Origin: Phycisphaerales bacterium
GTDB taxonomy: Bacteria; Planctomycetota; Phycisphaerae; WQYP01
Direction: 5' to 3'
Length of the DNA stretch: 36,171 nt
Assembly (NCBI GenBank): GCA_027313145.1
Contig: DAHVEJ010000018.1
Coordinates: 1-36,171 of the forward strand
Shown here: piece by piece, positions 13,541 through 15,348 of the stretch
Layout: each line of letters begins with the position of its first letter
How positions within the stretch are numbered: position 1 is the first letter of the stretch
Translations under genes and position numbers: made by a program
Notes under the pieces: generated by a model
What the model saw: only the letters and a program-made list of their open reading frames with translations
What the model was told of the DNA's origin: nothing
The model's database searches: none

Positions 13541-14236
13541 TCATGAAGTAAGAGACTCAATCTGCGAAATCCAGGCGTTAAAATGTGGACATGCCTGCCG
13601 CAGTGCGGGCAGGCCAATTTTCGCAGCGGCCAGTGGCCCTGCCGACGCCTTACGGACCTTGTATGCCGCAAGATGGTTGATTATCCGTTTTGAGGGAGCA
13701 GTGGCTTTACCGTCATTTATCTCCTCCGGTGTTTTCCCGGTGTTCCGCACCTCCGCCAGTAAATCATCTACTGCGCTGGATTGTTCAATAAAAATATCCT
13801 TAAGCACATCGCACCTGACGAGCAGCAAGGTTTCGAATTCATGGATCTGCAGATAGGGAATAAAGCGTTCAAAGTTGAGGTCGTTTGCCCAGGCGGATTC
13901 CAACTTTGCAACGCGATCATTGGCTCGTCGTTCACCGGCGGTTTCTCTGTAGCCGGGAAATTCATCGACAAATGCTCCTAAACCGTAATAATCAAGCATC
14001 GTGGTAAACCAAACGCTTTGGTCCCGTCCCTGAGACTTGATCCAGGAACTTAGATCGTCCTTCCAGTGGCCATATCGTCGGCCACCTCCTTGTGCCGCCG
14101 CATTTCCCCGGCGACCGCTGGTGACCACCTTGCTGGCCGACGTCGTAATCCCGAATCCTCCGAAATGCGGAGACAATACCTCGTTGACAAAGCGTTCTTC
14201 CGCATCGCCTTCAACAATGATGTTAAGGCGTATCAT
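13541..14236 (-). CDS. DUF4276 family protein (predicted TOPRIM-like)
   Basis: MIRLNIIVEGDAEERFVNEVLSPHF start, 'YGLGAFVDEFPGY', 'RFIPYLQIHEFETLLL' typical of DUF4276; overlaps the upstream ATPase gene by 4 nt. Confidence 0.85.
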   Translation of the reverse strand: MIRLNIIVEGDAEERFVNEVLSPHFGGFGITTSASKVVTSGRRGNAAAQGGGRRYGHWKDDLSSWIKSQGRDQSVWFTTMLDYYGLGAFVDEFPGYRETAGERRANDRVAKLESAWANDLNFERFIPYLQIHEFETLLLVRCDVLKDIFIEQSSAVDDLLAEVRNTGKTPEEINDGKATAPSKRIINHLAAYKVRKASAGPLAAAKIGLPALRQACPHFNAWISQIESLTS

Positions 14237-15348
14237 CCCGGCCTCCCGCCAAGCACGTTCTTATCCCAAAGTTCGCCAAGGCTGTATCGCCCCAGCCAAG
14301 CTTGCAGCGCGGCTTGATCCAAGCGGTGAAAGGTGGATTCTCGCTGGTGTCGTTCCACAACCACCACATCTTGCGGTTCAAACGCGTCTAACAGCTGTGC
14401 AGATTGTGTCGCAACGATTACCTGAACGTTCTGCGATGCCGCCTTGATTAACCCGGCGATTGTCGCAATAGCATGCGGGTGCAGGCCGAGTTCCGGCTCA
14501 TCGAGAATCAGCAAATCCGGCAGCGCGTCGGCCGGTTGTAAAAGCAGCGTCGTCAAGGCCATGAATCGCAGCATTCCGTCGGATGCCTGATGCGCACCAA
14601 AAATGCAGTCCGTGCCCCGTTCCCGCCAGGACAGAAGCACATTTCCGTTTTCCGGCTCCCATTGAAAATCATCAAAAAAAGGTAAGCTTTGTCGCAGAGT
14701 ATCAACAATGCGTTGGTAGTACGCAACGGAACTGACGTTCCCTTTCAGCCGATGCAGGACTGCCGCCAGATTCCCCGCATCCTCCTTAAGCCAGCGACCA
14801 TCATCGACGCTCCAAGACTGGCGCATTCGGGAGGTAAATGACGTATTGTGAAATTGATATACCACAAACTTCTGCAACATGGCGTAGATAGCCTTTGGCG
14901 TCGGTTCCTGCTTTTCTGCGCGGGCTTTTAACAGTGACTCTTCGTGCCCTTGCCCCAGTGCCACGCGCGCCCCAGCGGCGACCCCAGTGGGCAGGTAGCG
15001 AACGCGTTCAAACTGGAAATAGAGCCGATCTGTCGCCGCATAGTCCAAACCAAATTCATATTCGTTGATTCCTTTTTCGGCTTGAATTTCAAATGATGAG
15101 CGGATTTCAGGAGTAACGGCGGGGCCGTCATGGAGCCAAGAGTGAGCTTTGCCGGTTTGCGTAAGGTGCCCCTGCAGGTTACCTGACATAACGTGGCTAA
15201 GCATGCGGAAGAAAGAAATGAAGTTGCTCTTTCCGGCACCATTGGCACCGATCAATACGGTCAATGGTCCCGGGGCGAACCCATGCAATGCTTTAATGCT
15301 TTTAAAGCCCTGAATGCTTAGCTTAGTGAGCCTGGGGCGTGCGGGCAT
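14233..15348 (-). CDS. AAA-family (SMC/OLD-like) ATPase
   Basis: Walker A LIGANGAGKSNFISFF, signature region, Walker B DLLILDEPELGLHPHAIATIAGLIKAAS, followed by VIVATQS. Confidence 0.93.
   Translation of the reverse strand: MPARPRLTKLSIQGFKSIKALHGFAPGPLTVLIGANGAGKSNFISFFRMLSHVMSGNLQGHLTQTGKAHSWLHDGPAVTPEIRSSFEIQAEKGINEYEFGLDYAATDRLYFQFERVRYLPTGVAAGARVALGQGHEESLLKARAEKQEPTPKAIYAMLQKFVVYQFHNTSFTSRMRQSWSVDDGRWLKEDAGNLAAVLHRLKGNVSSVAYYQRIVDTLRQSLPFFDDFQWEPENGNVLLSWRERGTDCIFGAHQASDGMLRFMALTTLLLQPADALPDLLILDEPELGLHPHAIATIAGLIKAASQNVQVIVATQSAQLLDAFEPQDVVVVERHQRESTFHRLDQAALQAWLGRYSLGELWDKNVLGGRPG

Follow-up and report, generated by a model that had tools for sequence, protein, structure and literature searches.

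Profile matches identify the two overlapping genes described here as a solitary copy of the catalogued candidate system HEC-01, which is neither PARIS nor OLD. We consider it probable (about 0.68) that the pair is a candidate defence module in which an ATPase senses infection and gates a Toprim-fold DUF4276 nuclease that stops phage growth. This reading starts from the observed pairing and overlap of the genes, purifying selection on both, the ATPase motifs, a Toprim-type motif register and secondary-structure order in the partner protein, the embedding of relatives in R-M or helicase-methylase operons, and relics of the pair. The genes lie in a 36,171-nucleotide stretch of DNA from a Phycisphaerales bacterium (here called the window), to which all positions below refer unless another locus is named.

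The gene pair and its family

The upstream gene, HEC-01A, encodes a 371-amino-acid ABC-type (AAA_21 / RecF-SMC-like) ATPase (positions 14233 to 15348, minus strand, ATG start), and HEC-01B encodes a 231-amino-acid DUF4276 protein (13541 to 14236, minus strand, ATG start). The DUF4276 start codon lies inside the ATPase stop codon, giving a four-base ATGA overlap (14233 to 14236, minus strand) that indicates translational coupling, and this or a nearly identical junction is found in most relatives of the window pair. An earlier note, made from the sequence, had placed two open reading frames here that overlap by ATGA and had read a Walker A motif, a Walker B motif and a DUF4276 N-terminus of MIRLNIIVEGDAEERFV. 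All of these were found as claimed: GANGAGKSN occupies ATPase residues 34 to 42 (15223 to 15249, minus strand), and the Walker B / D-loop segment LLILDEPELGLHP occupies residues 279 to 291 (14476 to 14514, minus strand). In an alignment of 19 relatives, the Walker A residues G34, N36, G39, K40 and N42 and the Walker B / D-loop residues D283 to P291 are invariant. A C-terminal tail, YSLGELW-x-KNV-x-GGRP, is also conserved and could serve as a partner-binding segment. The ATPase is presumed to act as sensor and regulator.

ABC ATPases usually carry a His switch. The window ATPase has TQS (residues 314 to 316), invariant in the 19 relatives, at what we take to be the position of that switch.

The pair has malic enzyme, arabinofuranosidase and GH92 enzyme genes on one side and alpha-amylase family and LacI regulator genes on the other, so the description of it as sitting alone between metabolic genes was correct. 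No defence genes were found in the annotated neighbourhood and no tRNA in the window, and a search around the pair for terminal repeats or tRNA as marks of a mobile element gave nothing convincing.

The ATPase matches Pfam AAA_21 (E = 9.7e-32), and the product of 13541 to 14236 matches Pfam DUF4276 over the whole domain (E = 1.1e-45), its sole Pfam match. Among the PADLOC models, the ATPase matches HEC-01A PDLC04175 over residues 6 to 370 (E = 2.8e-128) and the DUF4276 protein matches HEC-01B PDLC04188 over residues 1 to 229 (E = 1.4e-67), matches that speak to family and not to function. The runner-up models for the ATPase are distant (AriA, 6.5e-31; Mad3, 1.7e-29; PDC-M07A, 1.3e-27; AbiLi, 8.4e-26; Old, 6.2e-19), and for the DUF4276 protein HEC-01B models are the only ones that match, the AriB and OLD models of PADLOC giving no hit. 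Since the HEC-01A and HEC-01B models are the best matches, the pairing had already been catalogued. The earlier proposal of a two-gene PARIS- or OLD-like defence module therefore holds for a candidate defence pair made of an ATPase and a Toprim-like partner; the family itself, going by the PADLOC model ranking, is HEC-01. Membership in PARIS was rejected, as the partner is DUF4276 rather than DUF4435/AriB and the ATPase ranks AriA far below HEC-01A, and so was membership in OLD, whose proteins are single polypeptides and whose model gave only the weakest of the E values above.

HEC-01 stands for "Hma-embedded candidate" 01 and comes from the Payne et al. 2024 preprint (doi 10.1101/2024.01.29.577857), as cited in PMC12111858; that paper describes HEC-04 as active on T4 and T5, and PMC12988326 describes several HECs as active, HEC-06 among them. 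None of the papers searched mentions DUF4276, PF14103 or HEC-01A/B. HEC-01 is a catalogued candidate for which we found no characterization in the literature searched.

The DUF4276 protein and the Toprim domain

OLD enzymes use a Glu, a D-x-D motif, an acidic residue four positions after the Glu, an S/T/D-x-E motif and a Lys or Arg, with E377, D431 and D433 as one set of metal ligands and D381, S478 and E480 as the other (PMC7049728). Most of this pattern is present in the window protein. Motif I, VEGDAEE (14195 to 14215, minus strand), holds E9 and E13; the motif II position, LDYY (13985 to 13996, minus strand), holds D82 with a Tyr (Y84) in place of the second Asp; HEFE (13832 to 13843, minus strand), the counterpart of S/T/D-x-E, holds E133 and E135; and APSKR (13685 to 13699, minus strand) holds K183 and R184. 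There is no variation at E9, G10, D82, E133, E135, P181 or R184 in 23 HEC-01-type relatives and almost none at E13 and Y84. From these positions, E9 is the presumed ligand of metal A and E13 that of metal B, and K183 or R184 is the candidate catalytic Lys or Arg.

A second DUF4276 subfamily (19 members) differs at motif II. Its invariant residues include E8, D67, D69, E111 and E113, that is, a full D-x-D, whereas the HEC-01-type members, the window protein included, have D-x-Y. The two subfamilies align over nearly their whole length (hhalign E = 3.5e-10), which brings VEG/VEE at the N-terminus and HEFE/EELE further on into register, and the motif I Glu is invariant in both family alignments. 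With D-x-Y in place of D-x-D, HEC-01-type members may bind metal A differently or not at all.

Both subfamilies could be brought into register with OLD Toprim domains. The D-x-D subfamily aligned with a profile E value of 3.4e-4, the Glu residues and the D-x-D motifs of the two sides being matched to each other, and motif I of the HEC-01-type group aligned with the VEGD/VEGE of the OLD Toprims, motif I being the only stretch aligned when this group was compared by itself. In six profile comparisons with OLD Toprims, the real score was unmatched by any column-shuffled target (195 to 199 in each). These results support the suggestion that VEGDAE is a Toprim motif I. A comparison of the DUF4276 profile with DUF4435, represented by three sequences only, was not significant, and a profile search of solved structures with the DUF4276 alignments returned nothing credible.

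The AlphaFold model of the D-x-D subfamily (pLDDT, 93.3) has the order b1-a1-b2-a2-b3-a3-b4-a4, with the Glu at the end of b1, the D-x-D at the end of b3 and the E-x-E after b4. The model of the window protein (pLDDT, 88.4) begins with the same order of strands and helices. Foldseek gave no match at E <= 0.001 for the two models against the PDB or for one of them against BFVD, and no Toprim was among the 50 matches listed. Structure prediction, a check proposed in the earlier note, yielded a Toprim-type order of elements for the D-x-D subfamily, the start of that order for the window protein, and no Foldseek match at that threshold. On the basis of the OLD profile alignment, the acidic positions and the predicted strand-helix order, the DUF4276 protein is probably a Toprim with a modified motif II.

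Distribution, genomic settings and probable loss of the pair

A same-strand relative of the window ATPase lies just upstream at 43 of the 48 DUF4276 loci examined, in most cases with overlapping genes or a gap of no more than about 10 bp; three of the other five loci are at a contig edge or are relics. Of 149 genomes sampled from the phylum, 27 carry the family; all 14 control genomes lack it. Genomes that have it can carry several copies: the window genome has four DUF4276 places, the other three of which also match HEC-01B models, and five species of the same genus have three to seven DUF4276 matches each at scattered positions. One query against viral contigs and phage records found no relatives.

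At the site of the window pair, between the malic enzyme and alpha-amylase genes, one sister species (G155) has an intact pair with 86% and 73% identity. Synonymous divergence between this pair and that of the window is near or above 1, and the dN/dS ratios are 0.08 for the ATPase and 0.10 for the DUF4276 gene, which indicates purifying selection on each of them wherever they are retained. The intact pair at the sister-species site, its low dN/dS and the 43 of 48 paired loci together argue against chance: the two genes form a genuine unit that is conserved. Another species (G152) apparently has the pair at this site as well, split across two contigs. In G151, only a DUF4276 relic (about residues 41 to 146; L015, 9635 to 9958) remains between the alpha-amylase and malic enzyme genes and the ATPase gene is gone, and in G150 the site is empty except for 42 bp left over from the ATPase gene (G150:C75; L075, 4907 to 5269), 93% identical to the G155 locus (L005). 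The contig of G153 ends too early to be counted for presence or loss. As the pair is intact in some sister species and reduced to relics in G151 and G150, it was probably ancestral at this site and lost at least twice; the DUF4276 relic and the ATPase scar mark the pair as accessory DNA.

We also compared positions 14100 to 15300 of the window with a locus of genome YP3.bin105 (L010). The pair is 97 to 99% identical and the flanking alpha-amylase gene 90 to 98% identical, and the dS of the ATPase is 0.04 versus 0.16 to 0.20 in nearby genes. A recent exchange is possible from these values.

Several relatives are embedded in R-M or helicase-methylase operons. Elsewhere in the window genome, a second pair lies between a Schlafen-AlbA gene and HsdR in the order HsdS, TIR, unknown, Schlafen-AlbA, ATPase, DUF4276, HsdR (G000:C318; L049, 125 to 8915); in this type I R-M operon, the Schlafen gene is of the Schlafen-AlbA_2 family and the DUF4276 gene overlaps HsdR by 10 bp. 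In the same-genus genome G150, a DrmD/HmaA-like helicase, a type III methylase, the HEC-01 pair and a type III restriction endonuclease (G150:C166; L154, 2261 to 13289) form one overlapping run. In a further genome (G162), an HmaB-like methylase gene precedes and overlaps the pair, and at another locus (L019) a SNF2 helicase gene lies 2 bp upstream of it. In Aeromonas media, A. veronii and Ideonella, plasmids carry the pair next to genes for helicases, for DNA methyltransferases and for an Mrr protein; further plasmid copies are not embedded, plasmid pTR11_2 has VapBC adjoining the pair, and a Nostoc plasmid copy (L058, 4320 to 7456) adjoins an AIPR family gene. Since the search was in part directed at embedded cases, these establish recurrence and not rate. 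Nine HEC-01-type neighbourhoods from across the phylum showed no enrichment of defence genes over eight control stretches; their neighbours were metabolic, and beyond the pair itself only a generic protein-kinase match occurred among the PADLOC families listed. The defence-island enrichment that had been suggested as a check was thus absent from the nine-region phylum sample, although the defence context is clear at several other loci.

Candidate mechanism, alternatives and known systems

In the mechanism that we favour, the ABC ATPase would bind ATP, recognize a sign of infection, and hold or activate its co-translated DUF4276 partner. Once licensed, the DUF4276 protein, as a Toprim-fold, metal-dependent nuclease, would cut nucleic acid, either phage DNA or host tRNA, and this cleavage would halt phage growth, probably by abortive infection. 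The nuclease chemistry, the trigger, the substrate and the antiviral outcome are the parts that we infer, and the combination of ATPase sensor and Toprim nuclease is modelled on PARIS (AriA/AriB) and OLD: AriA releases AriB, which cuts tRNA (PMC12409363), and in OLD a similar chemistry cuts DNA (PMC7049728). A more specific version, which we regard as rather unlikely, would make HEC-01 a portable guard cassette that enters operons of the type I, type III and Hma-like kinds, detects when a phage inhibits the restriction machinery and then releases, on host RNA or phage DNA, a Toprim nuclease whose metal site is altered to D-x-Y, with solitary copies guarding something else in the cell.

The solitary position of the window pair amid metabolic genes and the purifying selection on it would also suit a housekeeping role in DNA repair or chromosome maintenance, by a RecF/SMC-like ATPase with a Toprim partner whose defence context is incidental; according to PMC12796447, the archaeal OLD-family ATPase Cran1 acts in the cell cycle and not in defence. 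Such a role is unlikely for a family that is confined to a minority of the genomes sampled in the phylum, occurs in three to seven differing copies per genome in the same genus, travels on plasmids, is embedded in R-M operons and has decayed in two sister species. A toxin-antitoxin-like addiction module, with one protein restraining the other, would account for the overlapping genes, the plasmid carriage and the VapBC neighbour on pTR11_2, and Pfam names AAA_21 a "putative AbiEii toxin." This label is, however, a broad family name that comes with no AbiEii match, small toxin-antitoxin modules do not usually contain a large ATPase, and the repeated R-M embedding favours defence. We find such a module quite improbable, and it overlaps with the favoured explanation, as the PARIS ATPase also restrains its effector. 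Finally, the pair may be a defence module in which D-x-Y marks a degenerate Toprim, with DUF4276 binding nucleic acid or acting as a structural partner of the ATPase. The near invariance of Y84 beside an invariant D82, and the retention of D-x-D in the other subfamily, fit this possibility; the (nearly) invariant E9, E13, D82, E133, E135 and R184 are unexpected for a dead enzyme and make it quite unlikely. 

Under the favoured reading, a defence module with a nuclease effector, HEC-01 gains a candidate mechanism that can be tested on named residues of a Toprim site. In a single planctomycete genus, the analysis also finds the module inside R-M operons of both types, I and III, and it documents presence and decay of the pair at one site.

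The window pair resembles HEC-01 in the nearly full-length matches of both proteins, in gene order and coupling, and in having plasmid and sister-species relatives in helicase/methylase operons; it differs in that the embedding in an Hma or other R-M operon, which is the discovery context and is not required of each copy, is absent. MADS Mad3 and PADLOC PDC-M07A are related ABC ATPases, but both matches are far weaker than that to HEC-01A, and no other MADS gene is present among the annotated neighbours. PARIS likewise consists of two genes, the AriA ATPase and the DUF4435 Toprim tRNase AriB, and the E-x-E of DUF4276 resembles the EIEN motif of DUF4435 proteins; in contrast to AriB, the DUF4276 protein has no DUF4435/AriB model match, and the ATPase is far closer to HEC-01A than to AriA. 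The OLD family (classes 1 and 2, including GajA) shares the combination of ABC ATPase and Toprim and the acidic positions (a Glu, a Glu/Asp four residues later, the motif II Asp and x-E; PMC7049728), but OLD is one fused protein whereas the window system has two genes, and DUF4276 has Tyr for the second Asp and no OLD-like_TOPRIM Pfam match. If the partner is indeed a Toprim nuclease, HEC-01 would join OLD, Gabija and PARIS as a further form of ATPase-Toprim system.
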